64,000 bases of DNA from [Empedobacter] haloabium (GTDB lineage Bacteria; Pseudomonadota; Gammaproteobacteria; Burkholderiales; Burkholderiaceae_D). The translations under genes were made by a program, and so were the position numbers. The stretch is from assembly GCA_008011715.2 (NCBI GenBank), contig CP136508.1:4030001-4094000 (forward strand), written 5' to 3'. Below the pieces are notes generated by a model. The model saw only the letters and a program-made list of their open reading frames with translations. It ran no database searches and was not told the DNA's origin. Below, in pieces: positions 2,761-63,294 of this stretch (position 1 is the stretch's first letter; every line of letters starts with the position of its first letter).

Positions 2761-2884
2761 GCTTGGGGTCTGTCCCCGCAGGGGACTGACCCCGGTTTTA
2801 TTTGTTGGCCCGTGCATATCGCCAACTGAAGGGTGAAGGCAGTGATAAAAACCGGGGTCAGTCCCAAAGGGACAGACCCCAAGC
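2761..2884. repeat. paired palindromic repeat (GGGGTC/GACCCC family), locus A
   Basis: Two inverted copies of a ~40-base unit (2761-2801 and 2845-2884) flank a 43-base spacer. Each unit is itself a hairpin, GGGGTCTGTCCC with GGGACTGACCCC, and ends in CGGTTTTAT on its outgoing side. The same unit recurs near 27.0, 42.9, 50.1 and 63.1-63.3 kb. It lies between the GNAT gene and a convergent small lipoprotein gene, so it could act as a two-way terminator; that role is inferred. Confidence 0.85.
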
Positions 2885-2944
2885 CCCGACGCGCCATGCC
2901 AACGCCCGGCTTAACCAAGCCAACCTCTGGCACAACTGCGAGAG

Positions 2945-3049
2945 TCAGCGCCCTGTGATCACCACCGGCTTCGGCGGCTTCGGCGGCGCCTTGTCGCAGC
3001 CGGCCAGCAGCAACGCGGCGGATGCGACGATCAGCATCAATATACGCAT
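2945..3049 (-). CDS. small proline-rich lipoprotein (34 aa)
   Basis: A short gene missed by length-based calling. It encodes 34 residues: a hydrophobic signal segment, a clear lipobox LLAGC with the lipidated cysteine at residue 18, and a 16-residue mature tail DKAPPKPPKPVVITGR. A GGAG ribosome-binding site lies 8 bases before the ATG. Signal peptidase II processing would leave a very short Pro/Lys-rich peptide anchored in a membrane. It is not LptM, whose mature part has the CGQKGPL pattern. It lies 65 bases downstream of the EamA exporter gene on the same strand. Function unknown. Confidence 0.6.
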   Translation of the reverse strand: MRILMLIVASAALLLAGCDKAPPKPPKPVVITGR

Positions 3050-3114
3050 GAGCTATTCTCCCGACTGAATGACAATTCACGGTAGCAGAACCACGCCACC
3101 ATCGGCGCACGCCT

Positions 3115-4020
3115 TCAGGCCGGCCGGCGCGACGACACGATGATTCCGCCGACGATCAGCAGGAACGCCAGCCCATGATAAAGATGCGGTAATTCGCCGA
3201 GAAACGCCGACGATAAAACGGCGGCAAACAGCGGCGTCAGGTTGCTGAAGAAAGCTGCGATGGCGGGGCCGGCGCGGCGTACCCCCTCACCCCAGCACCG
3301 GAATGCCACCACGGCCGGGCCGATGGCAACATAGGCCAGCACGGCAAATAAGGTCGGCGTCCAATGGACGGTCGCCTCCGATAATGCCCATTCGCCAGCG
3401 GCAAATAAACCGGACCAGACCACGCCAAATGCGACCTGGGCCAGCAGGAAACCCGCCCAATCGGCGCGCAGGCTGGCGGGTTCATGGGTACGCGTCAACA
3501 ACCAGCTATACAGTGACCAGGCGATCGTCGCCAGGATCATGAATAAATCGCCGGCCACCAGGCGCAATGCCAGCAGTTGCTGCACATCGCCGCGCGCCAA
3601 TACCAGCAATACCCCGGCTATCGATAATACGGCACCGGTGATTTGGCGGCGGCTGACGCGCACACCGAAAAACAGCCGGCCCGTGAGCATCATCCAGACC
3701 GGCATCCCGGCCGCCACCAAGGTCACGTTGATCGGCGTGCTGCTTTGCAGGGCCAGATATTGCAGCGCGTTATACAAACCGACGCCCAGCAATCCCAAGA
3801 CGGCATAGCGGCGCCAGTGCGGCCATAATCCGCTGTCGCGCCGGAATACTGGACCGGCCAGCGGCAGCAGAATCAGCAGTGCCAGCGCCCAGCGCAACAG
3901 GTTCAGCAGAATGGGCGGTACCAGATCGTGCACGAGGCGACCGGCGATGGCGTTGCCGGCCCACAGCAGCGGGGGCAAGGTCAACAGGAAGACGGTATGG
4001 GGCGTCAGTCGGGTATTCAT
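3115..4020 (-). CDS. EamA/DMT-family transporter
   Basis: A 301-residue inner-membrane protein with ten predicted hydrophobic segments arranged as two EamA repeats, the architecture of drug/metabolite exporters such as RhtA and YdcZ-like proteins. The substrate is unknown; many relatives export amino acids or small metabolites. The start at 4020 gives MNTRLTPHTVFLLTLPPLLW, with the first membrane helix beginning at once, as is normal. An alternative ATG 63 bases upstream would add a polar extension. It is divergent from the DUF3460 gene, leaving 122 bases for both promoters. Confidence 0.88.
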   Translation of the reverse strand: MNTRLTPHTVFLLTLPPLLWAGNAIAGRLVHDLVPPILLNLLRWALALLILLPLAGPVFRRDSGLWPHWRRYAVLGLLGVGLYNALQYLALQSSTPINVTLVAAGMPVWMMLTGRLFFGVRVSRRQITGAVLSIAGVLLVLARGDVQQLLALRLVAGDLFMILATIAWSLYSWLLTRTHEPASLRADWAGFLLAQVAFGVVWSGLFAAGEWALSEATVHWTPTLFAVLAYVAIGPAVVAFRCWGEGVRRAGPAIAAFFSNLTPLFAAVLSSAFLGELPHLYHGLAFLLIVGGIIVSSRRPA

Positions 4021-4142
4021 TGCTGTAGAGAATAACCGATTCGACAACTCGTCGCTGCGCTGCGACAGAATTCCCTGCGGCATGCCGCAGCGCGGTAGAA
4101 TACGCGTTGGCTTTCACCAATGTCCTTTTTTCCAATCGAGCT

Positions 4143-4355
4143 ATGAAATTCCTGTTCAAGCAACACCGCGGTTACGAATCCGACCACACCCAGTTCATCA
4201 AGAGCCTGAAGGAACAGAATCCGGCCATCGAGCAAGGCCAGCGCGAAGGTCGCGCCCTGCTGTGGGACAAGGCCCCGCTGTCGCTGGACGAGCGCGCCCG
4301 CCAGCGCGAATCCGCCATCAAGCAGCAAGCCTACGTCTACCAGAACAAGCTGTAA
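4143..4355 (+). CDS. DUF3460 family protein
   Basis: A 70-residue soluble, highly charged protein. The pattern near the middle, EGRALLWDKAPLSLDE, followed by QQAYVYQ at the end, is the hallmark of DUF3460, a small family largely confined to Burkholderiales. Function is unknown. The start at 4143 (MKFLFKQHRGYESD) fits the family; an in-frame start 36 bases upstream would add residues not seen in relatives. It lies 28 bases before scpA, and this neighbourhood is common in the order. Confidence 0.85.
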   Translation: MKFLFKQHRGYESDHTQFIKSLKEQNPAIEQGQREGRALLWDKAPLSLDERARQRESAIKQQAYVYQNKL

Positions 4356-4383
4356 GCTGACGCGCTGACAGAGGACGGCACGC

Positions 4384-5295
4384 ATGCTGCCCCACGACGC
4401 GGCGGACGACCCGGCGGACCAGGCGCAAGCCGCTGCCGGCATCGCCGTCGCGCCAGGCGACGTTCCGCCTCCCCCCGTTTCCGACGAGCCGGCTGGCGCC
4501 GCGGCCCAGGCCGACGGTGCCGCTTTTGCACGCCTGTACGGCGAGCCGCTGCTGCACCTGCCGACCGACCTGTACATTCCGCCCGACGCGCTGGAAATCT
4601 TCCTGGAAGCGTTCGAGGGCCCGCTCGACCTGCTGCTGTACCTGATCCGCCGGCAGAACTTCAACATCCTCGACATTCCGATGGCGCAGGTCACCCTGCA
4701 GTACCTGAAGTATGTCGACCAGATCCGGCTGTCCAATCTGGAGCTGGCGGCCGAGTACCTGCTGATGGCGGCGATGCTGATCGAGATCAAGTCGCGCATG
4801 CTGCTGCCGCAGCGCCAGCACGATATCGAAGTGGAACTGGACGATCCCCGTGCGGAACTGGTGCGCCGCCTGCTCGAATACGAGCAGATCAAGCTGGCCG
4901 CCGTCGACCTGAACGCCCTGCCCCAGCTGGACCGCGATTTCGTCCGCACCCAGATCTTCATCGAGCAAAGCCTCGTGCCGGTGTGGCCCGACGTCAGCGC
5001 GGAAGACCTGCAGGCGGCGTGGCGCGACCTGCTCAAGCGTGCCAAGCTCAAGCAGCATCACAAGATCACCCGGGAAGAGTTGTCGGTGCGCGAGCACATG
5101 ACGATGATCCTGCGCCGGCTGCAGTCGCAGCGCTTCGTCGAGTTCGCCGACCTGTTCGACGTGGCCGGTGGCGTGCCCGTGCTGGTGGTGAACTTCGTCG
5201 CCATGCTGGAGCTGGCCAAGGAAACCCTGATTGAAATTACCCAGGCCGAACCGTTCGCGCCCATTTACGTGCGCCTCGCCTATTCGCCTGCCTGA
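4384..5295 (+). CDS. scpA: segregation and condensation protein A
   Basis: The kleisin subunit of the Smc-ScpAB condensin, which compacts and segregates the chromosome. The 303-residue product has an Ala/Pro-rich N-terminal extension of about 55 residues, then the ScpA core starting at about residue 63 with the conserved FEGPLDLLLYLIRRQNFNI segment. Conserved LAAEYLLMAAMLIEIKSRMLLP follows in two parts, and the C-terminal winged helix runs to the end. A GAGG ribosome-binding site precedes the ATG. scpB is not in the window. panC follows after 24 bases. Confidence 0.95.
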   Translation: MLPHDAADDPADQAQAAAGIAVAPGDVPPPPVSDEPAGAAAQADGAAFARLYGEPLLHLPTDLYIPPDALEIFLEAFEGPLDLLLYLIRRQNFNILDIPMAQVTLQYLKYVDQIRLSNLELAAEYLLMAAMLIEIKSRMLLPQRQHDIEVELDDPRAELVRRLLEYEQIKLAAVDLNALPQLDRDFVRTQIFIEQSLVPVWPDVSAEDLQAAWRDLLKRAKLKQHHKITREELSVREHMTMILRRLQSQRFVEFADLFDVAGGVPVLVVNFVAMLELAKETLIEITQAEPFAPIYVRLAYSPA

Positions 5296-6159
<864 letters not shown>

Positions 6160-6173
6160 TCGCTACAGCCGGG

Positions 6174-6300
6174 CTCGTGTCCCACCCCGGGGTCAGTCAC
6201 CGAAGTGGGACACGAGCTGATCTGTATGGGGGAAGGACTGTCCTCTGACAGTCGAGGTCGTGTCCCGTTTTGGTGACTGACCCCGCGGTGGGACACGGGC
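6174..6300. repeat. paired palindromic repeat (GTGTCCCAC family), locus B
   Basis: Two hairpin units lie between panC and the convergent HDOD gene. The first (6174-6216) has perfect 12-base arms CTCGTGTCCCAC and GTGGGACACGAG around a core containing GGGGTCAGTCACC. The second (about 6258-6300) has CGTGTCCC and GGGACACG around GGTGACTGACCCC, so the cores are inverted relative to each other. It shares the GTCAGTC/GACTGAC core with the other loci but has different outer arms, and looks like a subfamily. Confidence 0.75.
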
Positions 6301-6317
6301 TGGGCCGTAGGCGGGGG

Positions 6318-7526
6318 TCAGGCCGTGACGTTCTGCGTCCACGCCAGCGCGGACAGGTGGGCCTTGTTGACGTCCGCCGGGCTGATCTTCAGCGTGGCGG
6401 CCAGCGACGACACCAAGGTCGAGTTCAGCTCGCACGCTTCCGCCAGCGCCAGGTAGGGGCCGTAGCGCCCGCCCCGCTCCAGCAGCGCCTTGACCACTTC
6501 GTCCGACAGCTGGATCGTTTCCAGCACATCCTTCATCGGCAGGCCCAGCAGACGGTCCAGCAGCGAGAACATGCCCGCGACGAAGACGTTTTCCGCCTCG
6601 GCGCGGCCCAGGGTTTCCAGGCTCAGCAGCTCGGCCAAGCGGCCGCGCACGACGGCCGTTTCCAGCAGCACGGGCGAGTAGCCGGTCGTGCTGGCCGTGG
6701 CCAGCAGCAGGGTGAGCCAGCGGTACAGGGGCTGGTAGCCCAGCAAGGTAATGGCCTGCTTCAGCGACTGGATCTCGCGCCCCGTGCCGAAGCCGGCCGA
6801 ATTGATGTAGCGCAGCAGCTTGTAGGAGAGCGCGGCGTCCCGCTTCAACACGCTTTCCAGCTTCGCCACGTCCGCATTCGCGTTGACCATCTGCATCAGT
6901 TGCAGGATGACGGTCTGCGCCGGATTGAGGCCCTTGGCTTCCGAGCCGGGGCGCGGGGTCAGGTGCAGCTTGCCGACGAAGGCGTCGATGCCCAGCGCGG
7001 CGCAGGCGTCGAAATCGGCCCACGTCGTCACCGGGCGGCCCACCATCCGCACCGAGGACTGCTTCAGCGCGGCATAGGTGCGCGCCTGCGTGGCCACGTC
7101 CGTGCCGGAGAAGCGCACCTCGACATACGAGCAGATCGTCGGCAGGCGGTTGCCGGCGCGGGCGATGTCGCAGTTGCGCAGCAGGATGCCGACGTCGCCC
7201 GCGCGCAGCGCGCGCACGGCCGCCAGCGTGTCGGGATTGGTCAGCTCGCGCGTGGCAATGGACAGCACGGTGTGCTGCGGCGGCAGGTCGTACAGCGCGT
7301 CCGTCGACAGCATCGCCGGCACGGCTTCGAGAAACAGGGTCTTGTCGCGCAGCAGCCAGCCGCGCTCGGGATCGTTGACCTGGCTGGCGACGAAGCCGAC
7401 CAGGTCTTCCAGGTCCGCCTGCGTCACGGCCAGGTCCGGATTGTGCTGCCACGTGAGTTCGTAGCCGACCACCCGTTGTTGCGGGTCCAGCAACGGCTCG
7501 CGCACGAGGAAATGGGTCTGGTGCAT
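6318..7526 (-). CDS. EAL/HDOD domain protein
   Basis: A 402-residue signalling protein. Residues 1-190 resemble a degenerate EAL-type domain (FLVREPLLDPQQRVVGYELTW at the start, cut here to the first strand) lacking the catalytic ExLxR set. Residues 200-390 form an HDOD domain (KLESVLKRDAALSYKLLRYI, then LLGYQPLYRWLTLLL). YuxH/CdgJ-type relatives affect motility and do not hydrolyse cyclic di-GMP. The start at 7526 (MHQTHFLVREPLLD) matches relatives better than one 36 bases upstream. It lies 45 bases after cheZ on the same strand, at the end of the chemotaxis block. Confidence 0.85.
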   Translation of the reverse strand: MHQTHFLVREPLLDPQQRVVGYELTWQHNPDLAVTQADLEDLVGFVASQVNDPERGWLLRDKTLFLEAVPAMLSTDALYDLPPQHTVLSIATRELTNPDTLAAVRALRAGDVGILLRNCDIARAGNRLPTICSYVEVRFSGTDVATQARTYAALKQSSVRMVGRPVTTWADFDACAALGIDAFVGKLHLTPRPGSEAKGLNPAQTVILQLMQMVNANADVAKLESVLKRDAALSYKLLRYINSAGFGTGREIQSLKQAITLLGYQPLYRWLTLLLATASTTGYSPVLLETAVVRGRLAELLSLETLGRAEAENVFVAGMFSLLDRLLGLPMKDVLETIQLSDEVVKALLERGGRYGPYLALAEACELNSTLVSSLAATLKISPADVNKAHLSALAWTQNVTA

Positions 7527-7571
7527 TGCGGGGTCGGTTGCGGGGGCGGCCCGGCGGGCCACCCGCCTTGG

Positions 7572-8225
7572 TCAGAAGCCCAGGCTGTCCAGCAGGTCGT
7601 CGACCTGCTCCTGGTCGGCCACGATGCCTTCGGCCGTCTTGTCGATCTGCGGACCGTTCAAGAGGCCCGTGTCGAGTTCCTTCTTTAGCTGTTCCGGCGC
7701 GAAATCGATCAGCGTCTGCACCAGCTGTTTTTCCAAGTTCTGGGCGATCGACGTGACACGCTTGATCACCTGGCCCGTCAGGTCCTGGAAATCCTGCGCC
7801 ATCATGATGTCCATCAGGTGGCCCTTGGTGGCGGTGGTCGCTTCCGATGCGGAGCCCAGCGCGGCAATGGTGCGCTGCGCCAGTGCGCGCCAGTCGCCTT
7901 CGCCGCCCCCGCCGTCCAGCAAGGCCTGCCAGGATGCGGAGAGTTCCTTTGCATCCCTGGCGATGCCGTCCTGCAGCGGGCCGGCCTCGTCCGTGGCGTT
8001 CAGCACCTTCTGCGCCGCGTTTTCGCTCAGGCGTGCCACGTAGTCGAGGCGGTCGCGGGCATCGGGGATATCCTCCGCTGCCTTCTCGATCAGCTTGTCC
8101 AGTCCCAGGCCACGCAGGTTTTCATGCAGCGCACGGGTCATGTGACCGATGCGCGACAGGAATTCCTCGTTCGGATCCGTCATGGCGGCCGTACTGGTGA
8201 CCGCTGCCGCTGCTTGCTCGCCCAT
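7572..8225 (-). CDS. cheZ: CheY-P phosphatase CheZ
   Basis: Removes phosphate from CheY-P, ending the motor-switching signal. The 217-residue protein is mostly helical. The active helix carries MMAQDFQDLTGQVIKR, with the catalytic Asp and Gln four residues apart as in enteric CheZ, and the C-terminus VDDLLDSLGF is the conserved CheY-binding helix. The start at 8225 is preferred because GGAG lies 9 bases upstream; an ATG at 8249 would overlap cheY by 20 bases. It follows cheY with a 4-base gap, so the two are translationally close. Confidence 0.93.
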   Translation of the reverse strand: MGEQAAAAVTSTAAMTDPNEEFLSRIGHMTRALHENLRGLGLDKLIEKAAEDIPDARDRLDYVARLSENAAQKVLNATDEAGPLQDGIARDAKELSASWQALLDGGGGEGDWRALAQRTIAALGSASEATTATKGHLMDIMMAQDFQDLTGQVIKRVTSIAQNLEKQLVQTLIDFAPEQLKKELDTGLLNGPQIDKTAEGIVADQEQVDDLLDSLGF

Positions 8226-8229
8226 GAAA

Positions 8230-8619: not shown

Positions 8620-8832
8620 GAATTACTCCGTTGATTCTTTATAACGCGGTTATTAAATTTAGCTCTGAACTACCAGCAAGTTGTAGGATAGCATTATCGT
8701 TACCCGTAGGGAACAGAACACCCTGTCACTGCCGGTAAAAAACCAGAATACCGTATCAAACGCGCACTGTAATTGTCTCGATCACGCGACGCTCTTCGTT
8801 CGAGCGCCGCGCTCCCCGCCGCGGCAAACCCG

Positions 8833-9903: not shown

Positions 9904-9914
9904 CAGTGCCAGTC

Positions 9915-26535: not shown

Positions 26536-26536
26536 C

Positions 26537-26999: not shown

Positions 27000-27145
27000 G
27001 CTTGGGGACTGTCCCTTTGGGACTGTCCCCGGTTTTATTCCGCGGCCTGGGCGGACCACGGTCATAAGCTTGCTCGGATAGTCAGCCGCGGATAAAAACC
27101 AGGGTCAGTCCCCTGCGGGGCGGTCCGGCGACCCGGCAGACCCTA
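27000..27145. repeat. paired palindromic repeat, locus C
   Basis: The first unit (27000-27038) reads GGGGACTGTCCC, a short loop, GGGACTGTCCCC, then GGTTTTAT. The second, inverted unit starts at 27092 (ATAAAAACC, AGGGTCAGTCCCC) but its far arm is disrupted by a GC-rich stretch before CAGACCCT (27137-27144). It lies between the response regulator and the GH39 gene. The region 26996-27241 holds no gene. Confidence 0.75.
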
Positions 27146-41446: not shown

Positions 41447-41606
41447 ATTTTGGCGACGATGAAACCGATGTTACTTTGAAGTCAACGACATATACTCAAC
41501 AGTCACATGAACCGTCTTATTTGCGCGAATCGGCCATGGTTTTCTCCAATTATTTGTTGCTTGAAGGTATTATCTGGACAGATAGATTACCTTGGATGAA
41601 AGCCCG

Positions 41607-42968
41607 ATGACGCCAGGCAGCACCGGTCTCTCCGCGCGCCGCGATGCCGCGGTCCTGATTGTCGACGACGCCCCGGACAGCCTGTCCGCGCTGCGCACGC
41701 AGATGGTCGAGCAGGGTTACCAGACCTTTGTCGCCAGCTCGGGCGAGCGGGCGCTGGAGCTGGCGCGGCGCGTGCATCCCGACCTGATCCTGCTCGACAT
41801 CGTCATGCCCGGCATGGACGGCTTCGAGACCTGCCGCCAGCTGAAAGCGCATCCGGTGACCCAGCGCATTCCCGTCATCTTCATGAGCGCGCGCACGGCG
41901 ACGGACGACGTGGTGGCCGGCTTCGACCTGGGCGCGGTGGACTATATCGGCAAGCCGCTGCGCATGCCGGAAGTGTGCGCGCGGGTGCGCACGCAGCTGT
42001 CGATCCGCGCCAGCGCCGAGACCCAGCACGAACAGGCCGAGCGCCTGCGCACGATCGTCAACAACATGGCCGAAGGCCTGTTGATCATCGAGGCGAACGG
42101 CCGCATCCAGTTCACCAACCCGGCCTGCGACCAGTACCTGGGCTATGGGCCGGAGGAGCTGGCCGGCCGCTATATCTCCGACCTGCTCAATCCCCTGGTG
42201 GCGCACGAGTACCTGGAGTATTTCTCGCGCTACGCGGCCAATCCGGAGACGGCGCACAGCCACGGCACGCGCGAAGTCATCATCCGCCACAAGCTGGGCA
42301 AATCGGTCTGCATGGACCTGACCCTGACGCCGATGTTCCTGCGCCAGCCGCTGTTCATTGGGCTCTTGCACGACATCACGCACCACAAGCTTTCCGAGGA
42401 TGCGCTGCAGCGCGCCGCCATGGTGGACCCGCTGACGAAGATCGCCAACCGCCGCCACTTCGACAGCTTCCTGGAAAAGGAGTGGCAGCGCGCCACCCGC
42501 ACCGGCGCGCCGCTGTCGCTGGTGGTATTGGACGTCGACCACTTCAAGCTGTACAACGATACGCTGGGCCACGCCGCCGGCGACGTCTGCCTGCAACAGG
42601 TGGCGCAGGCCATCGCCGCGCATGCACTGCGCGGCACCGACCTGGCGGCACGCTACGGCGGCGAGGAATTCGTGCTGCTGTTCGCGGAGACCGACGCCAA
42701 CGCGGCCGCCGCGCTGGCCGAATCCGTGCGCGCGCACATCGAGACGTTGCAGCTGCCGCACCCGCGCTCGCCGACCTCGCCCTGGATCACGGTCAGCATC
42801 GGCGTGGCGACGATGACGCCGCGGCAGAACGACCGCATCGAGTCGCTGTTCGTGGCGGCGGACCGGGCGATGTATGCGGCCAAGGAGGAAGGGCGCAACC
42901 GGGTGCGGATAAACGCTGGGCTGCCCAGCGGCGCATCAGGCTTGGGGTCTGTCCCTGCAAGGGACTGA
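41607..42968 (+). CDS. diguanylate cyclase, REC-PAS-GGDEF
   Basis: Makes cyclic di-GMP under control of a receiver. The 453-residue protein has a receiver (about 15-130, phospho-Asp in LILLDIVMPGMDGFE), a PAS domain (about 150-260) and a GGDEF domain (about 270-440) with the active-site RYGGEEFVLLF. The product-inhibition site RGTD lies five residues before GGEEF. The start at 41607 is the first ATG; a TTG at 41592 would add five residues. The last residues GLGSVPARD and the stop codon lie inside a palindromic repeat, so the natural C-terminus may have been shorter. Confidence 0.9.
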   Translation: MTPGSTGLSARRDAAVLIVDDAPDSLSALRTQMVEQGYQTFVASSGERALELARRVHPDLILLDIVMPGMDGFETCRQLKAHPVTQRIPVIFMSARTATDDVVAGFDLGAVDYIGKPLRMPEVCARVRTQLSIRASAETQHEQAERLRTIVNNMAEGLLIIEANGRIQFTNPACDQYLGYGPEELAGRYISDLLNPLVAHEYLEYFSRYAANPETAHSHGTREVIIRHKLGKSVCMDLTLTPMFLRQPLFIGLLHDITHHKLSEDALQRAAMVDPLTKIANRRHFDSFLEKEWQRATRTGAPLSLVVLDVDHFKLYNDTLGHAAGDVCLQQVAQAIAAHALRGTDLAARYGGEEFVLLFAETDANAAAALAESVRAHIETLQLPHPRSPTSPWITVSIGVATMTPRQNDRIESLFVAADRAMYAAKEEGRNRVRINAGLPSGASGLGSVPARD

Positions 42969-43040
42969 CCCCGGTTTTCATCGTAACGCATGCGCCGCCG
43001 ATAGAAACCAGGGTCAGTCCCGAAGGGACAGACCCTAAAC
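42941..43040. repeat. paired palindromic repeat, locus D (overlaps gene end)
   Basis: The first unit (42941-42982) has GGGGTCTGTCCC and GGGACTGACCCC then CGGTTTTCAT. The inverted second unit (43003-43040) has AGGGTCAGTCCC and GGGACAGACCCT. The first unit encodes the last nine residues and stop of the diguanylate cyclase. A fragment CAGGGTCAGTTC lies at about 43070. Confidence 0.85.
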
Positions 43041-43084
43041 CTGATGAGGCAAGGGCTGCTCAAGCAAACTTCAGGGTCAGTTCA

Positions 43085-44656
43085 CTAGCGCCGCGGATAG
43101 TCGGTGATCTCGGCGATCTGCTCGTACAACGGCCGCAGCTGCCGGTACATCTTCAAATACACGCGCCGGTACAGCTGGTCATAGACGCGCGCATTGGCCG
43201 CGATCGGCTGGAACTCGCGGCCCGGGCGCGTCATCGCCGCGATCGCCGTGGCGAAGTCCGGCTGCAAGCCGATCCCCACCGCCGCCGCGATGGCCGCGCC
43301 CAGGCCTGAGGTCTCGTACACGTGCGCGCGCGCGGCCGGCAAGCCGAAGATGTCGGCGGTCAGCTGCATCGCCGCGTCGCTCTGCGAGCCGCCGCCGGCC
43401 ACGCGCAGCTGCGTGATCGGCGTGCCGCTGCGCCGCTCGATCCGTTCCCTGCCCTCGCGCAGCGCATACGCCAGCCCTTCCAGGATCGCCCGGTACATGT
43501 GCGCGCGCGTGTGCACGTCGCCGAAGCCGATCATCGCGCCCTTCGCTTCCGGTCCCGGGATGCGCACGCCCGGGCTCCAGTAGGGCTGCAGCATCAGCCC
43601 CATCGAGCCGGGCGGCACGGCGTTGACCAGGTCGTCGAACAGCACTTCCGGCGCTGTGCCGCTTTCCGTCGCCAGCGCCTGCTCGCGGTCGCCGAACTGC
43701 TCCTTGAACCAGTTGACCATCCAGAAACCGCGGAAGATCTGCACCTCGGTGCTGTAAGCGCCCGGGATCGCGGCCGGGTATGGCGGAATGAACGGCGTCA
43801 CCTCGACGTACTTCGTCCCCGTCGTGTTGATGGTGGCCGTGGTGCCGTAGCTGAGGCAGCCGATGTGCGGCGCCAGACAGCCGGCGCCGATCACTTCGCA
43901 GGCCTTGTCCGCCGCCGCCGCGATCACCGGCAACCCGGCCGGAATGCCGGTCAGTTGCGCCGCAGCGCCGGTGATCACGCCGATCGGCGTGCCCGGCGCC
44001 ACCAGCTCCGGCAGCATGTCCGGCCGCAGCGCCAGCGCCTGCCACTTCCAGTCGCGCGCGCCGGCCCAGCGGTGGCGCTTGTAGTCGAACGGCACGTAGG
44101 CCACCTGCGAACCAGTCGAATCGGCATATTTTCCCGTCAGGCAGAAGTTCAGGTAGCCGGACAGCAGCAGGAACTTGTGGGTCTTCTGCCAAACGTCCGG
44201 CTGGTGCGCGGCGATCCAGTTGATCTCCGCCTCGCGCTGGAAGTAGGTCAGCGTGTTGTCCACGCGCGCCAGCCGGAACGCGGTGCGCCACAGCGCGCCC
44301 ACGCGCGGCACGCTGTCGGTGCGCCGCTGGTCCAGCCACGTGATGGCCGGCCGCAGCGGGCGGCCGTCGGCATCGACGTTGACGACGGTGCCGCGCTGGG
44401 TGGTCACGGCCACGGCCGCGATCTGGCTGCGCAGCGCCGGCTGCTCGGCCCACAGCCGCTGGCAGGCCGCGCACACGGCCTGCCAGTAGCCCTCGGCCTT
44501 GTGCTCGGCCCAGCCGGGGTGGTCGGAATAATAGGCCTGCAGGTGCACCTGGGCCTTGGCGACCAGGTTGCCGCGCAGGTCGAACACCAGCGCGCGCACG
44601 CTCTGGGTGCCGTTGTCGATCGACAGCAGAAGGGGAGACGAATGCGGTTCAAGCAT
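43085..44656 (-). CDS. FGGY-family carbohydrate kinase
   Basis: A 523-residue sugar or polyol kinase of the FGGY fold. The N-terminal phosphate motif is LLLSIDNGTQSVRALVFD (about 12-29), and the C-terminal FGGY-like signature region contains LRVAGGGSQSDAAMQLTADI. It is too divergent to call xylulokinase or glycerol kinase. Its start codon overlaps the stop of the GlpD-like gene by eight bases (ATGCTTGA), so translation is coupled. It is the third gene of an operon with an alkyl-DHAP-synthase-like flavoprotein, suggesting a glycerol-derived substrate. Confidence 0.88.
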   Translation of the reverse strand: MLEPHSSPLLLSIDNGTQSVRALVFDLRGNLVAKAQVHLQAYYSDHPGWAEHKAEGYWQAVCAACQRLWAEQPALRSQIAAVAVTTQRGTVVNVDADGRPLRPAITWLDQRRTDSVPRVGALWRTAFRLARVDNTLTYFQREAEINWIAAHQPDVWQKTHKFLLLSGYLNFCLTGKYADSTGSQVAYVPFDYKRHRWAGARDWKWQALALRPDMLPELVAPGTPIGVITGAAAQLTGIPAGLPVIAAAADKACEVIGAGCLAPHIGCLSYGTTATINTTGTKYVEVTPFIPPYPAAIPGAYSTEVQIFRGFWMVNWFKEQFGDREQALATESGTAPEVLFDDLVNAVPPGSMGLMLQPYWSPGVRIPGPEAKGAMIGFGDVHTRAHMYRAILEGLAYALREGRERIERRSGTPITQLRVAGGGSQSDAAMQLTADIFGLPAARAHVYETSGLGAAIAAAVGIGLQPDFATAIAAMTRPGREFQPIAANARVYDQLYRRVYLKMYRQLRPLYEQIAEITDYPRR

Positions 44657-50049: not shown

Positions 50050-50138
50050 GCTTGGGGTCTGTCCCTTCGGGACTGACCCCGGTTTTCATCCGCTGCGGAG
50101 GAAAACCGGGGACAGTCCCAGAGGGACAGTCCCCAAGC
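50050..50138. repeat. paired palindromic repeat, locus E
   Basis: The first unit (50050-50089) has GGGGTCTGTCCC and GGGACTGACCCC with CGGTTTTCAT. The inverted second unit (50101-50138) has GGGGACAGTCCC and GGGACAGTCCCC. It lies upstream of the SRPBCC gene and 99 bases from the P450 stop. Confidence 0.85.
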
Positions 50139-50177: not shown

Positions 50178-50228
50178 GGGACAGGCACCGATCTGCGGGT
50201 CGCCGACCCGCAGATCGGTGCCTGTCCC
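50178..50228. repeat. 51-base near-perfect palindrome
   Basis: Two perfectly complementary 25-base arms are separated by a single base (50203). The outer part is GGGACAGGCACC and the inner part GATCTGCGGGTCG. It ends nine bases before the P450 stop codon, on the downstream side. No T-run follows. It would form an extremely stable cruciform or RNA hairpin. Confidence 0.9.
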
Positions 50229-54534: not shown

Positions 54535-54628
54535 GTATCGCATCATAGATTGGGACAAGGCATGACGATACACCAGAAATTATCGTTTTTGTTACAATTG
54601 CCCGGTCCGCCGGCCGGCGGACGTCAAT

Positions 54629-54772
54629 ACGTCTTCGGGGCGGGGTGCGATTCCCCACCGGCGGTAGGGTCCGAGAGGACCGAGCCCGCGAGCGAGGATG
54701 GGGCAAGCGCCCTGTCCGAGCAGACATGGTCCGATGCCATGGCCGACGGTATAGTCCGGATGAAAGAAGATG
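54629..54772 (+). ncRNA. FMN riboswitch (RFN element)
   Basis: The conserved blocks occur in order: CGGGGCGGGGTGCGATTCCC, ACCGGCGGTA, AGCCCGCGAGCG, then GTCCGATGCC, GACGGTATAGTCCGGATG and AAAGAAGA. This is the RFN aptamer, which binds FMN and represses riboflavin genes. It lies 102 bases before ribB. The 339-base gap between the M16 gene and ribB is mostly this element. Confidence 0.95.
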
Positions 54773-54873
54773 TGCGCTGTACGTGCTCCCTGGAGCGGCT
54801 TGGCCGCGCCGGGCGCGCGCCCATACGCTTGCCCTGAAGCGTTTTTCGCCACTTATGCGAGGAGCGTTTCACA

Positions 54874-56952: not shown

Positions 56953-56989
56953 TATGCATACCATCAGCGCTCCGATGCAAAAATGCATC
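56953..56989. promoter_or_regulatory. ATGCAT-type operator candidates between MFS and LysR genes
   Basis: TATGCATA (56953-56960) and GATGCAAAAATGCATC (56974-56989, perfect 6-base arms) are two related palindromes in the 103-base divergent gap. LysR-type regulators bind such inverted repeats near divergent promoters. Confidence 0.4.
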
Positions 56990-57001
56990 AGCGGAGAGAG
57001 C

Positions 57002-57865: not shown

Positions 57866-57885
57866 GGCCGGGCGGTCCCGCCCAC

Positions 57886-59280
57886 TCACACCACGGCGGC
57901 GCTGGACGACTCGGGCCGCCGCGCCAGCAGATGCGACAGGCGTTGCAGCCCTGCCTGCAAGTGCCCGCGTTGCTTGATGCTGCCCAGCGAGATCCGGATG
58001 GCGTTCGCCGCTGCACCGTCCGTGGCGAATGCCTGCGCCGGCGTGACGGCGATGCCCTCGCTGTCGGCTGCCAGCGCGAACTGCGCCGCGGTCCAATAAG
58101 CCGGCAGCTCCAGCCATACGTGCAGGCCGTCGCCAGCGCCGCTATAGCGGCCCGCCAGGATATCGCGCGCCAGCCGGTGGCGCAGGCGCGCCTCGCTGCG
58201 CACGCCTGCCAGCAATCCATCGGCCGAACCGTCCAGGATCCACTGGGTGGCCAGCGCGGCCGTCAACGGGGCCGCCATGAGGGCGAACGATCGCAGGGCG
58301 GCCATGAAACGCTCGCGCTCGCGCGGGTCGCGGATCAGCACGAAGGCGACCCGCAAACCCGGTGTCAGGCATTTCGACAGGGTCGAGATGTAGTAGACCT
58401 GTTGCGGCGCAAACGTGGCGACAGGCGGGGGCGCGGCATCGGCCAGCAGCCAGTAGGGATCGTCCTCGACGATGCGCACATGGCAGCGCTGCGCGATGGC
58501 GGCGAGCTCCCGGCGCCGCGTTTCCGGCATCGTGACGGCGGTCGGATTCTGCAATGTCGGATTGAGGTAGACCAGGCCAGGCTCGCGCTGTCGGCACGCC
58601 TGCTCGAGCAGTTCGGGCACCATCCCGTGCCGGTCCGCCGCCACCGCGACGAGGTGGCGGCCGAATTGATCCGCCGTGGCGCGCAAGCCAGGATAAGTCA
58701 TCGGCTCAGCCAGGATCGTATCGCCAGGCTTCGTCAGCGCGAGCACCGACGCGGCGAGCGCCGCCTGCGCGCCCGGGCAGACGACAAGTTGCGCCGGGTC
58801 CAACGGGCCGAACATCGGTGCCAGCCACTGGACGCCAGCCCTGCGCTCGGCGTGCCCGCCCCCGCCCAAGTGGTAAGTCATCAGCAAGTCGTTGTCCGTC
58901 CTCATCAAAACTTGCGACAGCCCCTGTTTCAGCAGATCGTCGAAGTCCACGCCATGCGGCGGTGGCGGCGTGTTCATGCCCAGGTCGAGCACCGGGGCCA
59001 GTTCCACTTTCGGCGCCGCGACATAGGTGCCGCGCGCGCCGCGCCCCTCCAGCAGGTGGCGACGGCGCGCTTCGTCATAGGCGCGGGTGATCGTCGTCAG
59101 GTCGACGTCCAGCTGAGCCGCCAATTGGCGCTGCGGCGGCAGGCGGTCGCCCGGTTTCAGCGCGCCGTCCGCCACCGCGGCCTGCAGGGCATCGGCGATC
59201 TGCAGGAACCGTGGCCCACCGTGCGCCGTCAGGCGCGGCAGCCAGGGCGGCTGATCTTGTATGGCTTCTAACTGGGACAT
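57886..59280 (-). CDS. MocR-type GntR regulator with aminotransferase domain
   Basis: A 464-residue regulator: GntR winged helix (about 25-90, PPQRQLAAQLDVDLTTITRA) and aminotransferase-like domain with the PLP lysine in YYISTLSKCLTPGLRVAF (about 305). A proline run (PPPPHG) marks the linker. It differs from the MocR at 36960-38405. It is divergent from a small membrane protein gene that may be its target. Confidence 0.9.
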   Translation of the reverse strand: MSQLEAIQDQPPWLPRLTAHGGPRFLQIADALQAAVADGALKPGDRLPPQRQLAAQLDVDLTTITRAYDEARRRHLLEGRGARGTYVAAPKVELAPVLDLGMNTPPPPHGVDFDDLLKQGLSQVLMRTDNDLLMTYHLGGGGHAERRAGVQWLAPMFGPLDPAQLVVCPGAQAALAASVLALTKPGDTILAEPMTYPGLRATADQFGRHLVAVAADRHGMVPELLEQACRQREPGLVYLNPTLQNPTAVTMPETRRRELAAIAQRCHVRIVEDDPYWLLADAAPPPVATFAPQQVYYISTLSKCLTPGLRVAFVLIRDPRERERFMAALRSFALMAAPLTAALATQWILDGSADGLLAGVRSEARLRHRLARDILAGRYSGAGDGLHVWLELPAYWTAAQFALAADSEGIAVTPAQAFATDGAAANAIRISLGSIKQRGHLQAGLQRLSHLLARRPESSSAAVV

Positions 59281-59314
59281 TTTGTCCTAATGTATGGAAA
59301 TTGCTTCCAGTTAG
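59268..59314. promoter_or_regulatory. inverted-repeat operator candidate upstream of second MocR gene
   Basis: CTAACTGG (59268-59275, inside the MocR start) and CCAGTTAG (59307-59314) form an inverted repeat. Between them lie CTAATGTATGG and GGAAATTGCTTCC. The position fits autoregulation together with control of the small membrane gene. Confidence 0.35.
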
Positions 59315-59357
59315 TATGCCTCAGTCGTGCTGCATCAGCCGGAAACAGGCAAAAATC

Positions 59358-59600
59358 ATGGATTGGATTCCGATAGTCTTCGTTACGTTCAAGGTCCTCG
59401 TGCTGGGGATCGGCATGTTCTTCGCCATCAAGTGGCATTACGATCAAGGGCAGAAGGACAAGGACAAGCAGAAGCAAGCGCGCGCCGTGCTGCGCGCGGC
59501 CGGCAAGGTGGCCGTGCTGTTCCTGTTGGCGCTCCTGGGCCTGGGCCTGCTCGCCTGGTTCCTCGTCAAGAAGACCGGTCTGGACATGAGCATGCCGTGA
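59358..59600 (+). CDS. small two-helix membrane protein (80 aa)
   Basis: Two hydrophobic segments (about 5-25 and 47-70) flank a strongly charged loop QGQKDKDKQKQARAVLR. No family is recognised with confidence; such proteins occur in many proteobacteria as unnamed membrane proteins. The start at 59358 (MDWIPIVFVTFKVL) is preceded by an A-rich stretch with a weak ribosome-binding site. It is divergent from a MocR-type regulator, 77 bases away. Confidence 0.7.
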   Translation: MDWIPIVFVTFKVLVLGIGMFFAIKWHYDQGQKDKDKQKQARAVLRAAGKVAVLFLLALLGLGLLAWFLVKKTGLDMSMP

Positions 59601-59620
59601 CGGCAGAGGATCGCCGCCGA

Positions 59621-60511
59621 TCAGGCCGCCCGTAGCGCCAGCGGCACCGCCCGCGCCCACCGGTTCGACGACAGCGAGAACGTCAACGCCCGCACCTGGT
59701 GATACCAGCCGGCCGGCACATACAGCATGTCGCCCGGCTGCACGATGCATTCGACGCATGCGGCCTGGCGCGCCAGCGGGTAGCGCTCGTAGTCGGGCGC
59801 TTCCGGATCGAACGGGGAGCCGAACAGGATGGCGTTGGCCTCCCTTGGATACAGGAACTCGTCGTGATGGGGCGGCGCCAGCGTGATGCGCTTCGTGCCC
59901 CACACCTGCGCGAAGACATTGTCGTCGTAGTCGCAGTGCAGCGGCGTCACCGTGCCGGCTGGGCCGAGCCAGAAACGCGGTGGGCCCATCTTGTCGAAAT
60001 ACGCAGGCCAGTGGCACAGGCGGTTCAACTCGCGCAGCTCCAGGTTGCCCAGGTACGGCGGCAGCCCGGGCGTGCCTGCCGCGACCAGGTCCAGGTAGGC
60101 CAGCAGCGACATGTCCGCCATTTCCCGGTCCGGCGCGAAAGCCGTGCCCACGTAGTCACCCACCCGCGCGCGCACAGCCAGGTGGCTGTAGTGCTGGCGC
60201 AGCGCCTGCACGTCCAGCGCGGCCAGCGGCCAGTGGCGCGCACCGCCTTCCATCAGGAACGGCAGGCCCTCCTTCGCGCGAGCGCGGAAGGACTTGGCAT
60301 CGAGCGGAGCGCAACGCGCAATGGCGGTAAATGGCGGCAAGGCGCGCGCCGCGGCCTTGATGGCATCGCGCATCGCGGCGATCGACCCCACACCGCGCAC
60401 GGCGGCGTCACGAAGTTCGCGCGCGGCCCGGTGGGCGGCGGCGTCCAGCGCCGCGGCTTCCGACTGCTGGCGCGTGGGCGGCAGGCGGGTAGAGTGGTTC
60501 AGTTCTGGCAT
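59621..60511 (-). CDS. JmjC-like cupin domain protein
   Basis: A 296-residue protein of the cupin-8/JmjC group of Fe(II) and 2-oxoglutarate oxygenases, many of which hydroxylate proteins. The metal ligands are HxD in VTPLHCDYDDN (about 178-180) and a distal His in GWYHQVRAL (about 276). The N-terminal 75 residues are helical, and a FLMEGGARHWPL strand precedes the barrel. The start at 60511 avoids a glycine-rich 12-residue extension. It is divergent from the MCE operon. The substrate is unknown. Confidence 0.87.
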   Translation of the reverse strand: MPELNHSTRLPPTRQQSEAAALDAAAHRAARELRDAAVRGVGSIAAMRDAIKAAARALPPFTAIARCAPLDAKSFRARAKEGLPFLMEGGARHWPLAALDVQALRQHYSHLAVRARVGDYVGTAFAPDREMADMSLLAYLDLVAAGTPGLPPYLGNLELRELNRLCHWPAYFDKMGPPRFWLGPAGTVTPLHCDYDDNVFAQVWGTKRITLAPPHHDEFLYPREANAILFGSPFDPEAPDYERYPLARQAACVECIVQPGDMLYVPAGWYHQVRALTFSLSSNRWARAVPLALRAA

Positions 60512-60575
60512 GGCGGCATTGTAGCCGCCGCCCTCCCGGATCGCCACCGCGCGGCCCGGATGTTAAGATCGCAAC

Positions 60576-61409
60576 ATGATCACTCATGCATCACTCTATC
60601 CCCTGCTACGGCGCATGCAACGGGCCACCGTGGTGTGGCTGACGAGTTGGTGGCGCCTGCTGCAGTTCGCCGTGCTGATCCTGTCGCAGGGGTTTACGCC
60701 GGCCAGCTACCGCAAGGACAATCGCAACCGCCTGGCCTGCCAGCTGGTGCTGGCCACCGCGCCGAATCTCTTGTGGTTCTCGATCCTGGCGGCGCTGATC
60801 AGCCTTGTCATCATCCGCATCGTCGTCGTCACCGCCTTCAGCTACGGCCTGTCGCGCTATGCGCTGGAGATGGTCGTGCGCGTGCTGGTGCTGGAACTGA
60901 TCCCGCTGACGGTGGCCCTGTTCGTGGCGCTGCGGACCACCTTGCCGGCCGGCGTGGAGTTCGCCCAGAAGCGCCTGGCGGCCGCCGCGTCCGCACCCGC
61001 CGGTTCGACGGGTGGCCGCACCGCCCCCGCCGAGGCGCTGCGCACGGAGTTCTTCCCGCGCGCGGCCGCCGGCATGTTCGCCGTCTGGATGCTGGGCGCC
61101 GTCAGCTGCGTGCTGACGCTGGTGCTGACCTACCTCGTGATCTACGGCTTCACGCCCTACGGCCTGCCCGGCTATACGCGCGTGGTGGGCCAGATCTTCA
61201 ATCCTTCCGTCGCGCTGATCCTGGTGCTGAAGATCGCCTTCTTCAGCTTTGCCGTCGGCCTGATTCCGCTCGCATCGTCGTACTACGATGCCGCCGCCAA
61301 CCCGTTCGTGCTGCGCTTTCGCGCCACGCACGGCCTGGCCGACATGGTACGCATGTTTTCCGTGATCCTGCTGATCGAGGTCGCATCGCTGATGGGTAAC
61401 TACTACTGA
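60576..61409 (+). CDS. MlaE-type ABC transporter permease
   Basis: A 277-residue inner-membrane permease with about five hydrophobic segments and the MlaE-family C-terminal region VALILVLKIAFFSFAVGLIP. It would form the membrane core of a lipid transporter with the MCE protein encoded two bases downstream. A central Ala/Gly/Thr-rich loop (about 135-155) is unusual compared with MlaE. No ATPase gene (MlaF type) is adjacent: upstream is a divergent cupin gene. Confidence 0.87.
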   Translation: MITHASLYPLLRRMQRATVVWLTSWWRLLQFAVLILSQGFTPASYRKDNRNRLACQLVLATAPNLLWFSILAALISLVIIRIVVVTAFSYGLSRYALEMVVRVLVLELIPLTVALFVALRTTLPAGVEFAQKRLAAAASAPAGSTGGRTAPAEALRTEFFPRAAAGMFAVWMLGAVSCVLTLVLTYLVIYGFTPYGLPGYTRVVGQIFNPSVALILVLKIAFFSFAVGLIPLASSYYDAAANPFVLRFRATHGLADMVRMFSVILLIEVASLMGNYY

Positions 61410-61411
61410 CT

Positions 61412-62380
61412 ATGAACGAACCGATCCCTCCACAGTCCCCCGCCCCGGCCGAACCCGCGCCGGTGCGCAACGCCGAGTTCAAGGCCGCGCTGCTGCTGGT
61501 CCTGATGGTGGCCCTGCTGGCCGGCGCCGCCATCTACCTGCTGTATGCCCGCGGCGCGTTCGAACCGACCCAGCGCCTGGTACTGACCGCCGACGATTCC
61601 GAAGGTGTCACCGTCGGCATGGACGTGACGTTTGCCGGCTTCCCTATCGGCCGCGTGCAGCGCATCGAACTCTCTCCCGAGGGCAAGGCGCGCGTGCTGG
61701 TGGACGTGCCGAAGAAGGACGCCCACTGGCTGCGCACCAGCAGCATCTTCACCCTGGAAAAAGGCATCGTCGGCGGCGCCAAGCTGCGCGCCTTCACCGG
61801 CATTCCCACCGATCCGCCATTGCCGCCGGGCGCCGAGCGCGGCCTGCTGGTGGGCGACGCGGCGGCCGAGATTCCCAAGCTGCTGGCGGCCGCGCGCGAC
61901 GTGCTGGCCAACGTGACGGCGCTGACGGCGGAGGACTCGGCGCTGGGCAGCAGCCTGAAGAATGTACAGGGCGTGACGGAAAAACTGAACGGCCCGGGCG
62001 GCGCGATGGGCCTGATCGCCGGCGAGGACAAGAAGGCGCGCGAGCTGCTGGCCAATGCGAACTCGCTGATCGTGCGCGCCGACCGCCTGGTAGGCAATGC
62101 CGACAGCAAGGTGTTCGGCAAGGACGGCGTCGCCACCGACGCGCAGGCCGCCATCGTCCAGCTGAACGGCCTGCTGGCGGATGCCCGCAACAGCCTGAAG
62201 AAAATGGATGCGGTGCTGGTGGAAGCCCAGGCCGTCGGCAAGAATGCCCGCGTGGCCACGGAAGACCTGGGTGCGCTGCGCGCCGATATCGACAGCAACC
62301 TGCGCCGCATCGAGCAGCTGGTCAACGAGATCAACCGCAAGTGGCCATTCAAGCGCGAGACGGAGATCAAGCTGCCATGA
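61412..62380 (+). CDS. MCE (MlaD-type) lipid-transport protein
   Basis: A 322-residue protein anchored by one N-terminal helix (about 26-48) with a periplasmic MCE domain (about 50-130, containing VTVGMDVTFAGFPIGRVQRI). A long helical tail (about 140-320) could form a ring or tunnel. Together with the MlaE-type permease it should move phospholipids or other hydrophobic molecules between membranes. Its stop overlaps the next gene start (ATGA). Confidence 0.9.
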   Translation: MNEPIPPQSPAPAEPAPVRNAEFKAALLLVLMVALLAGAAIYLLYARGAFEPTQRLVLTADDSEGVTVGMDVTFAGFPIGRVQRIELSPEGKARVLVDVPKKDAHWLRTSSIFTLEKGIVGGAKLRAFTGIPTDPPLPPGAERGLLVGDAAAEIPKLLAAARDVLANVTALTAEDSALGSSLKNVQGVTEKLNGPGGAMGLIAGEDKKARELLANANSLIVRADRLVGNADSKVFGKDGVATDAQAAIVQLNGLLADARNSLKKMDAVLVEAQAVGKNARVATEDLGALRADIDSNLRRIEQLVNEINRKWPFKRETEIKLP

Positions 62381-63030
62381 AGACCACCATCATTGTCGGC
62401 GCCCTGCTCGCGCTGGCCGGCTGCGGCAGCGCCCCGCCCGTGCCGGACTGGAAGATGAACGCGCAAAGCTCGCTGCAGCGCGCTACCGATGCATACCTGG
62501 AAGGCAAGGACGCCATCGAAAAAAACGAGTTTGCGCGCGCGCGCAGCGAGATCGGCGCCACCGGCAAGGTCGATCTCGTGATTCGCGCGGAGCTGATCCG
62601 CTGCGCGCTGCGCACGGCGGCGCTCACGTTCGAGCCTTGCGCCGGGTTCGAAGCACTGCGCACGGATGCGACACCGGCCGATATTGCCTATGCCGCCTAC
62701 CTGGCGGGACAGGCGCGCCCTGGCGACGCGGCGCTGCTGCCGGAGCCGCAACGTGCGGTGCTGGCCGCGGGCTCGGACCAGGCCGCGGCCGCGGCGGCGC
62801 AGGCGATCGGCGACCCGTTGTCGCGGCTCGTCGCGGCCGGAGCGCTGTTCAAGGCGAATCGGGCCACGCCGGAACTGCTGGCAATGGCGGTGGAGACGGC
62901 GTCGAACCAGGGCTGGCGCCGCTCGCTGCTGGCGTGGCTGAACGTGCAGGCGCTGCGGGCCGAGCAGGCCGGCGCGGCGGACGAGGCGGCGCGGGTGCGG
63001 CGGCGGATGGCTTTGGTGGAGGGGAAGTAG
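62377..63030 (+). CDS. lipoprotein of the MCE operon
   Basis: A 217-residue lipoprotein. The signal peptide ends in the lipobox LALAGC (Cys at 16), followed by a helical repeat-like domain rich in Ala. No family is recognised with confidence. It overlaps the MCE gene by four bases and is therefore translated with it. It may be the outer-membrane or periplasmic partner of the transporter, by analogy with PqiC- or MlaA-type partners, though it resembles neither clearly. Confidence 0.8.
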   Translation: MKTTIIVGALLALAGCGSAPPVPDWKMNAQSSLQRATDAYLEGKDAIEKNEFARARSEIGATGKVDLVIRAELIRCALRTAALTFEPCAGFEALRTDATPADIAYAAYLAGQARPGDAALLPEPQRAVLAAGSDQAAAAAAQAIGDPLSRLVAAGALFKANRATPELLAMAVETASNQGWRRSLLAWLNVQALRAEQAGAADEAARVRRRMALVEGK

Positions 63031-63046
63031 AAGCAGCTGCCCCCAA

Positions 63047-63294
63047 AGGGGACTGACCCTGATGCGGCTAAGTTAAGGAAAATTATCAGCCAGCCGCCGA
63101 GGTCTTTGCACCCAAACGCGGAGAGCTGGGGTCAGACCCGGCGGGTCTGACCCCGGTTTTGGGCCTGGGGTTGAGGGATACGCCTGCGGCCCAGTGAGTC
63201 TTACATCCTTAACTTGGCGGCATCAGGGACTGACCCCGAGGTTCAGTGCAATACGAGCGAACTTCAGGGTCAGTCCCCGGTGGGGACAGACCCT
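63047..63294. repeat. composite palindromic repeat, locus F (overlaps helicase gene end)
   Basis: Several related elements share this stretch. An inverted pair carries CCTTAACTT(A/G)GC(C/G)GCATCAGGG: reverse at 63053-63090, forward at 63208-63230. A 27-base palindrome GGGGTCAGACCC/GGGTCTGACCCC sits at 63128-63154. A unit at 63266-63294 encodes the last residues and stop of the helicase. The 239 bases between genes are almost wholly repeat. Confidence 0.8.

Follow-up and report, generated by a model that had tools for sequence, protein, structure and literature searches.

The 64,000-nucleotide stretch of the [Empedobacter] haloabium chromosome analysed here (CP136508.1, positions 4,030,001 to 4,094,000; hereafter the window) carries palindromic repeats at seven loci. 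A first-pass annotation had grouped these into one family recalling repetitive extragenic palindromes (REPs) and bacterial interspersed mosaic elements (BIMEs), which are spread by REP-associated tyrosine transposases (RAYTs). The palindromes lie where it had placed them, far above shuffled and reversed controls, and are real beyond any chance expectation. The single family did not survive: the seven loci hold several. The main one, family A, is a hairpin of the form GGGGTCTGTCCC-loop-GGGACTGACCCC with two main tail types, A1 (…GACCCC-GGTTTTWAT) and A2 (…GACCCC-GAAGTTTG), and its units occur at five loci (2765-2880, 27004-27144, 42944-43036, 50054-50134 and 63266-63294). The locus at 6174-6300 belongs to family B (GTGTCCCAC...GTGGGACAC), which has only GGGGTCAGTC in common with A, and that at 50178-50228 to family D. 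The locus at 63047-63294 is composite: an element resembling miniature inverted-repeat transposable elements (MITEs), with a family C hairpin inside it, lies within an A arm and is followed by an A2 half. Most loci had been described as paired units followed by a tail; the tail (CGGTTTTAT or CGGTTTTCAT) was recovered at loci 2761, 27000, 42941 and 50050 and is confined to them, and one of the supposed partners, at 27101-27144, is degenerate. The features are as follows, where REPIN denotes an inverted REP doublet and TIR a terminal inverted repeat.

2765..2793, + strand: A1 unit with tail GGTTTTAT, left half of REPIN 1, at a convergent GNAT / EamA-transporter junction
2854..2880, - strand: A1 unit, right half of REPIN 1 (linker 2794-2853)
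6173..6217, no strand: family B palindrome GCTCGTGTCCCAC...GTGGGACACGAGC, between the convergent panC and HDOD genes
6258..6299, no strand: second family B palindrome; both B units co-fold as single-stranded DNA (ssDNA)
27004..27030, + strand: A1-type unit, GGGGACTGTCCC variant
27101..27144, - strand: degenerate partner of the pair at 27000, by eye
41592..42968, + strand: response regulator-PAS-GGDEF gene, last residues (GLGSVPARD, then stop) REP-encoded
42944..42972, + strand: A1 unit, left REPIN half, convergent GGDEF/FGGY-kinase junction
43010..43036, - strand: A1 unit, right REPIN half, same junction
50054..50080, + strand: A1 unit, left REPIN half, 3' of a P450 gene
50108..50134, - strand: A1 unit, GGGGACAGTCCC variant, right half of the P450-side REPIN
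50178..50228, no strand: family D palindrome GGGACAGGCACCGATCTGCGGGTC..., perfect 24-bp stem
63049..63059, + strand: left copy of the 11-mer GGGACTGACCC (A-arm), beside the MITE-like element
63060..63225, + strand: MITE-like element, 166 bp, TIR TRATGC[CG]GCTAAGTTAAGG / CCTTAACTTRGCGGCATYA
63128..63154, + strand: family C hairpin GGGGTCAGACCC-GGC-GGGTCTGACCCC, within the MITE-like element
63226..63236, + strand: right copy of the 11-mer GGGACTGACCC (A-arm)
63266..63294, - strand: A2 unit, encoding the C-terminus (GSVPTGD, then stop) of the helicase-like gene 63270-63953

The loci had also been called intergenic, which holds in general and fails at 42968 (GGDEF) and 63270 (helicase-like gene). 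At these two positions, and in 6 of 90 sampled A/C units overall, the stop codon of a called gene lies inside a unit, so the C-termini of both genes are REP-encoded. Three C-termini derived from A units were seen (LGSVPNGD, GLGSVPARD and GSVPTGD, each followed by the stop), and a RAYT-like protein of this genome, RAYT-A, likewise ends in GLGSVPAGD and a stop.

Copies outside the window, whose scarcity would have spoken against mobility, are plentiful. The core 12-mer of family A, GGGGTCWGTCCC, has 261 + 261 matches on the two strands of the one-contig 6.48-Mb genome, against 0 + 1 for its reversed-sequence control (522 versus 1 in total). Sixty evenly spaced 20-kb stretches yielded 81 units at up to four mismatches (68 of family A and 13 of family C by sequence), and one base-shuffled 200-kb sample yielded none. 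In A pairs the units are opposed, with tails pointing inward. Among 50 sampled loci, 27 hold one unit, 18 hold two and five hold more; regular clustering of the BIME kind was looked for here, and one or two units are present at 45 of the 50. Within the 60 stretches, three A2 pairs whose linkers are near-identical stand in tandem at one place, with a period of ~117 bp (L078, 1667-1983), and one array of A1 pairs was found in the sister genome G028. Genome-wide, exact-arm patterns, which allow only linkers of limited length, retrieved 51 A2 pairs and 26 A1 pairs. The A2 linkers, 48 of the 51 being examined, measure 34-41 bases in 41 cases; their outer six bases are conserved and their centres variable. 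Neither a hidden conserved fold (mean z -0.06) nor a hidden conserved sequence (mean centre similarity barely above shuffled) was recovered from them. A T·T mismatch is kept mid-stem in 60 of 68 A units. As ssDNA, A pairs fold into long hairpins, and five window loci gave folding z-scores of -8.5 to -12.4. The motif GGGGWSAS stands on one strand of 64 of the 76 A units scanned and, judged by this motif, family A is close to the repeats of TIRYT genes.

A genome search for a RAYT or Y1 gene near the repeats, proposed in the first-pass annotation, retrieved five genes matching Y1_Tnp, although as a protein L035 falls just under the cut-off; none lies in the window, as had been stated. All five proteins match NCBIfam REP_Tyr_transpos with E <= 1.1e-15, two above and three below the curated cut-off. 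By eye, the alignment shows the HUH motif (HVH or HYH) kept in RAYT-A, L031, L032 and L034, and a tyrosine region with its RY motif in all five; L035 (1150-1887) has QLQ in place of HUH, and this fifth gene may be inactive. A profile built from the five proteins and the G028 RAYT-A matched Escherichia coli TnpA_REP (4er8, E 1.8e-5), and RAYT-A alone matched no solved structure. Palindromes of families A, B and C adjoin three of the five genes. The RAYT-A gene (L033) ends within an A1 pair, which encodes its last residues; B palindromes flank the L032 gene on both sides; and two C hairpins lie 3' of the L031 gene. It is by adjacency alone that these families are paired with their RAYTs. Other repeats accompany the remaining genes: a GGGGTCAGGTCTG repeat flanks L034 on either side and AAAACCAGGGACGGACCCCGGTTTT lies next to L035, with GGGGTCAG found within the repeats beside L032 and L034. 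RAYT-A is single in its genome (next match 47%) and syntenic in G028 (80.9% over 3660 bp), where A units also stand at its 3' end (L037), A2 and A1 there and A1 in E. haloabium. A C-terminal helix-turn-helix was not matched in RAYT-A; among the five genes scanned, only L034 shows a sub-cut-off HTH_23. The L033 stretch also contains, at 998-1016 (G000:C1 ~2099956), a 19-base Tn5/Nextera mosaic end, plus one base, interrupting an open reading frame (ORF) that is presumably FliD-like. The G028 orthologue lacks the 19-base insertion and no second mosaic-end copy was found in the stretches checked; it is likely an adapter left in the assembly.

A preference for gene ends, whose absence would have spoken against the annotation's reading, was found. 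REP-type palindromes of all families occupy 49 of 125 convergent junctions, 24 of 483 codirectional ones and one of 124 divergent ones, and all 90 A/C units lie either outside called genes or no deeper than 60 bases into one. The gene model used gives the same strand and stop as the Pfam-bearing genes checked; two models trained on the longest ORFs were rejected, as they called antisense frames contradicted by Pfam. Convergent placement is shared by the families (A1 14/22, A2 20/37, C 8/13, D 8/11 and B 4/5 of placed units). A T-run, defined as TTTT or at least five T in the nine bases beyond the hairpin on either side, is present in 27/27 A1 units, 4/43 A2, 4/14 C, 1/11 D and 0/5 B, and in none of six A units without a clear tail type. 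For comparison, 63 other hairpins, ordinary terminators included, comprise 28 at convergent junctions and 27 with a T-run. An ordinary terminator accompanies 10 of the 49 REP-bearing convergent junctions and 13 of 38 REP-free ones (p 0.22, not significant). GTAG and CGTC REPs, too, are reported to lie at the 3' ends of genes (PMC3733652).

G028 is collinear with the E. haloabium genome and 87-91% identical to it over the aligned parts of the window. We compared 554 kb of E. haloabium DNA with 356 junctions, of which 317 could be mapped (22 codirectional, 14 convergent and three divergent junctions could not), and scored a junction as occupied if it held a palindrome of any REP-type family or one whose stem scored 16 or more. 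Convergent junctions were occupied in both genomes in 12 cases, in E. haloabium only in two, in G028 only in one and in neither in 15; the corresponding codirectional counts were 13, 4, 7 and 217, and all 46 divergent junctions were empty in both. Thus, of 271 mapped convergent and codirectional junctions, 25 are occupied in both genomes and 14 in one, and co-occupation far exceeds independence (convergent 12 versus 6.1, p 2e-5; codirectional 13 versus 1.4, p 2e-13).

The occupants themselves are a different matter. A pairs are present in both species at ten junctions (nine by script, with 3699847 added by eye), yet the linker is clearly kept at only one of them (3699847) and the tail type differs at eight. 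At 4013823, a truncated A2 unit, whose linker by eye resembles that of G028, lies beside the E. haloabium A1 pair and may be a remnant. Tail mismatch alone falls within a random draw (p 0.09, nine junctions), and it is the loss of linkers, rather than the tail mismatch, that is the strong signal of turnover. Beyond the ten junctions, linkers were picked by similarity, a biased choice. Three such linkers are kept at orthologous sites (2433379, 1539463 and 1781037), and one match shows a type switch (5705605 with 5347096). The REPIN at 382700 is 92% identical over ~120 bp to G028 3776581, a non-orthologous place with unrelated flanks, and the G028 site orthologous to 382700 holds a different A1 pair; a weaker non-orthologous match links 5645230 to G028 638856 (86% over 98 bp). 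Hairpin loops differ in six of six arms at the kept-linker REPINs 3699847, 2433379 and 1539463, the fourth (1781037) being left unscored for its atypical hairpins; hairpin tips therefore seem to change faster than linkers. Overall, occupants tend to be exchanged while colonised junctions stay colonised.

Among 60 relatives, the A 12-mer is abundant in three: G028 (437 copies), G003 (68) and G020 (58), with at most 19 in every other genome. The same three hold the closest RAYT-A relatives within the genus (63, 53 and 54% identity, respectively), so that across 36 same-genus genomes the three closest RAYT-A holders show the three highest A copy numbers. At a single junction the picture can be followed further afield. 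The best named matches of the FGGY kinase include Pseudoduganella buxea (84%), P. umbonata (82%) and P. flava (80%), of the Oxalobacteraceae, which makes E. haloabium most likely a relative of Pseudoduganella/Massilia, and the GGDEF and FGGY genes (window 42968-43085) lie at most 700 bp apart in 40 of the 74 named-relative loci examined (80 fetched). A units were found at this junction in none of the 40 and a C hairpin in one (L195); seven carry a perfect palindrome (stems of 12-43 bp), and in five of the seven GGGGTCAG stands near the ends. In L142, L156, L162, L168, L169 and L175 the palindromes are perfect with stems of 24-43 bp, and five of these six have GGGGTCAG. A single convergent junction is thus colonised by unrelated palindromes, depending on the species. 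For the codirectional P450 junction, a perfect stem of at least 12 bp was found in none of 31 relatives. Some of the GGDEF/FGGY-junction palindromes resemble the joined flanks of the L034 RAYT gene.

The MITE-like element is bounded by the TIRs TRATGCCGCTAAGTTAAGG/CCTTAACTTRGCGGCATYA (window 63060-63225; L206-L217; L249, L250). A 177-base query gave 77 BLAST matches genome-wide, many of them limited to the C hairpin or the opposite strand; at least 20 copies, that of the window included, span 140 or more of the 177 positions, with identities of 88% or higher in 18 and of 76-80% in two. This number of copies is a lower bound, as 40 of 185 candidates were scored. About 11 bases are repeated on both sides of the copies, and by eye 10 of 12 aligned copies sit between two copies of an A-unit arm. 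Two further copies with the same TIRs have, by eye, an A1 pair in place of the C hairpin, one of them inside a D-like repeat. The G028 site orthologous to 63030-63270 holds an A2 pair and no MITE. No recognisable transposase was enclosed by TIR sites with up to one mismatch; the single wide TIR pair encloses a gene that, going by its sequence, we take to encode a GGDEF protein. At 4152010-4153795 (L295/L296), ~1.7 kb absent from G028, with ends TGTATTGGACCTG, adjoins a MITE TIR and looks like an insertion sequence (IS) inserted in a MITE. Family D (L072, L073, L079, L085, L089 and others) consists of perfect or near-perfect palindromes with 25-bp stems (GGTGTCAGGCACC...), in which the inner stem varies among copies while both arms stay complementary. 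As for known RNA families among the repeats, the only Rfam model to pass its threshold in the window was the flavin mononucleotide (FMN) riboswitch (RF00050, 106 bits) at 54627-54775 on the + strand; at a relaxed threshold, 62950-63400 gave only eukaryotic microRNA models far below gathering scores (best E 2e-5).

Taken together, these palindromes are very probably non-autonomous mobile elements of the REP/REPIN type, served in trans by RAYTs. The annotation's likeness to REP/BIME elements is borne out by hundreds of copies, inverted pairs, five RAYT-type genes and a REPIN that the two species have at sites which are not orthologous. All of this was observed, as were the extragenic placement at gene 3' ends and the adjacency to RAYTs. 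A units, single or in inverted pairs of ~80-140 bp, would fold as ssDNA into one long hairpin and would be served by the single-copy, vertically inherited Y1/HUH RAYT-A, which probably uses the unpaired T·T to recognise the hairpin and cleaves at the hairpin foot; recognition, cutting and joining are inferred steps. Families B and C lie beside other RAYT genes of this genome, B on both sides of its gene. Several observations weigh against this reading. GTAG occurs within eight bases on either side of none of 76 A units, which thus fall outside the classical definition of GTAG REPs. A units were found only at the 3' end of RAYT-A, with none 5' of it in the 1.4 kb examined. Movement of A pairs is deduced from their positions, and for none of them was an exact empty site, its target intact, recovered. 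Over the 36 same-genus genomes, RAYT score shows no significant rank correlation with A copy number (rho 0.23, p 0.19); a split at 205 bits gives p 0.006, with a cut picked after seeing the data. The next best RAYT score in the genus (G013, 49%) goes with no copies of the 12-mer, and G049 and G046, from other families, combine a RAYT at 54% with one copy each.

Other explanations can be set beside the RAYT-served REPIN. The pairs might be mobile two-way terminators, as the first-pass annotation had suggested, each stopping transcripts from both flanks, with the host keeping one per convergent junction and tolerating exchange of its sequence. The concentration at convergent junctions, the co-occupation in the sister genome and the GGTTTT that follows the hairpin in all 27 A1 units would all suit this. 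The terminator reading fits A1 only, however, because A2, B, C and D share the placement mostly without a T-run; moreover, junctions that hold a REP are not significantly poorer in ordinary terminators, the conserved T·T has no evident reason in a terminator stem, and a REP-type palindrome is missing from 76 of the 125 convergent junctions. As a general function it is not supported, and we consider it improbable. Ectopic gene conversion, with repeats immobile today and recombination between near-identical arms swapping interiors, would explain why interiors change while sites stay and why loops differ in all six arms of the three kept-linker REPINs. However, it would leave the same linker in donor and recipient, and linker pairs at least 0.75 similar number only 12 among 74 in E. 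haloabium (10 of these from a single cluster of five copies) and one among 50 in G028, two tandem copies and two near-copies, respectively, having been excluded beforehand. In the one clearly moved A1 pair, part of the outer flank also moved along. Conversion appears less probable still. Least credible, and very hard to sustain for the A pairs, are ordinary MITEs spread by a DDE transposase with target duplication. Such a process fits 63060-63225, given its TIRs, the 11-mer on both sides and its 20 or more copies, but A pairs show no target duplication by eye and adjoin a RAYT, and TIR pairs with up to one mismatch per site enclose no recognisable transposase.

A more serious contender concerns how sites come to be shared: insertion may happen anywhere and survive only at a few harmless junctions between two stop codons, so that both species were hit independently and no docking is involved. 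The absence of units deep in genes and the near-emptiness of divergent junctions agree with such tolerance, as does 3564151, where the insertion borders lie ~17 bases apart by eye, fitting independent insertion. Other sites speak for a different history. At 4103868, G028 has a single hairpin with an uncommon GGGACTGTCCCC arm followed by GGTTTTCACC; E. haloabium has the same hairpin as the left half of an A2 pair, continuing with GAAGTT, linker and inverted unit and then CGGTTTTCACC, the old GGTTTTCACC being displaced. This would be most simply explained if a tail-linker-inverted-unit module had been joined to an older single hairpin at its 3' foot, and suggests that existing REPs act as landing sites. 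At 4113488, an uncommon right arm is common to both species and tail, linker and partner differ; by eye, left borders coincide at 4080028 and nearly do so at 3973107. We therefore put forward, tentatively, a docking model in which resident hairpins would be permanent docking sites, RAYT would add modules at their 3' foot and REPINs would be overwritten in place. Because two sites only point to it and others, such as 3564151, fit independent insertion, we regard it as doubtful; tolerance alone is a good possibility, if somewhat short of an even chance.

Compared with known systems, what we describe is a REPIN-RAYT-type system with GGGGWSAS-type ends instead of GTAG, in which every REPIN feature tested was found save GTAG and, for family A, flanking of the RAYT on both sides. 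In Pseudomonas fluorescens SBW25, REPINs are likewise extragenic inverted REP doublets with a long ssDNA hairpin and a less conserved spacer, in several groups each near specific RAYTs (Bertels and Rainey 2011, PMC3116915); diversity of the spacer is already described (PMC3116915, PMC8049555). Unlike them, the present elements have no GTAG-type tag, carry T·T in their arms and bear two tails (GGTTTT and GAAGTT) on one arm sequence, and a MITE-like element targets those arms. The TIRtrons/TIRYTs of Di Nocera et al. (2013, PMC3733652) resemble this system in combining RAYT-like genes, absence of GTAG REPs and flanking GGGGWSAS repeats; their repeats are moderately abundant, whereas the family here counts hundreds of units, many paired, and RAYT-A lacks a match to the C-terminal helix-turn-helix of most described TIRYTs (PMC6006769). 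E. coli TnpA_REP (PMC8266576, 4er8) is also a Y1/HUH protein, with profile similarity to ours, and its REP recognition needs an unpaired bulge, for which the conserved T·T suggests a counterpart; GTAG, essential there, is absent here, and the stem sequence is unrelated. The orthoswitch of Nunvar et al. (2013, PMC3686654) similarly has a syntenic RAYT with differing REP variants in related genomes, but the switch seen here extends to individual dispersed insertion sites. REPs are known targets of IS elements (Tobes and Pareja 2006, PMC1525189); the inserting element is here a 166-bp MITE-like one that has no recognised partner IS and itself carries REP hairpins. Among the top matches in the open-licence literature, no paper was found on REPs of this genus or on site-by-site REPIN exchange, the nearest being the orthoswitch (PMC3686654).

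These results extend GTAG-free REPIN-RAYT systems to Oxalobacteraceae, at high copy number and alongside five RAYT-like genes on a single chromosome. Convergent gene ends are preferred even where a terminator tail is missing, a point of relevance to the old claim that REPs are found at such ends because they stop transcripts. The comparison with the sister genome allows two modes of REPIN persistence to be tested against each other, copying to new locations and overwriting at sites already inherited. If docking is true, orthoswitching would be resolved to single insertion sites, and the map of colonised gene ends would be inherited, with the occupants, their linkers and even the REP type giving way to others in the course of a single species divergence.

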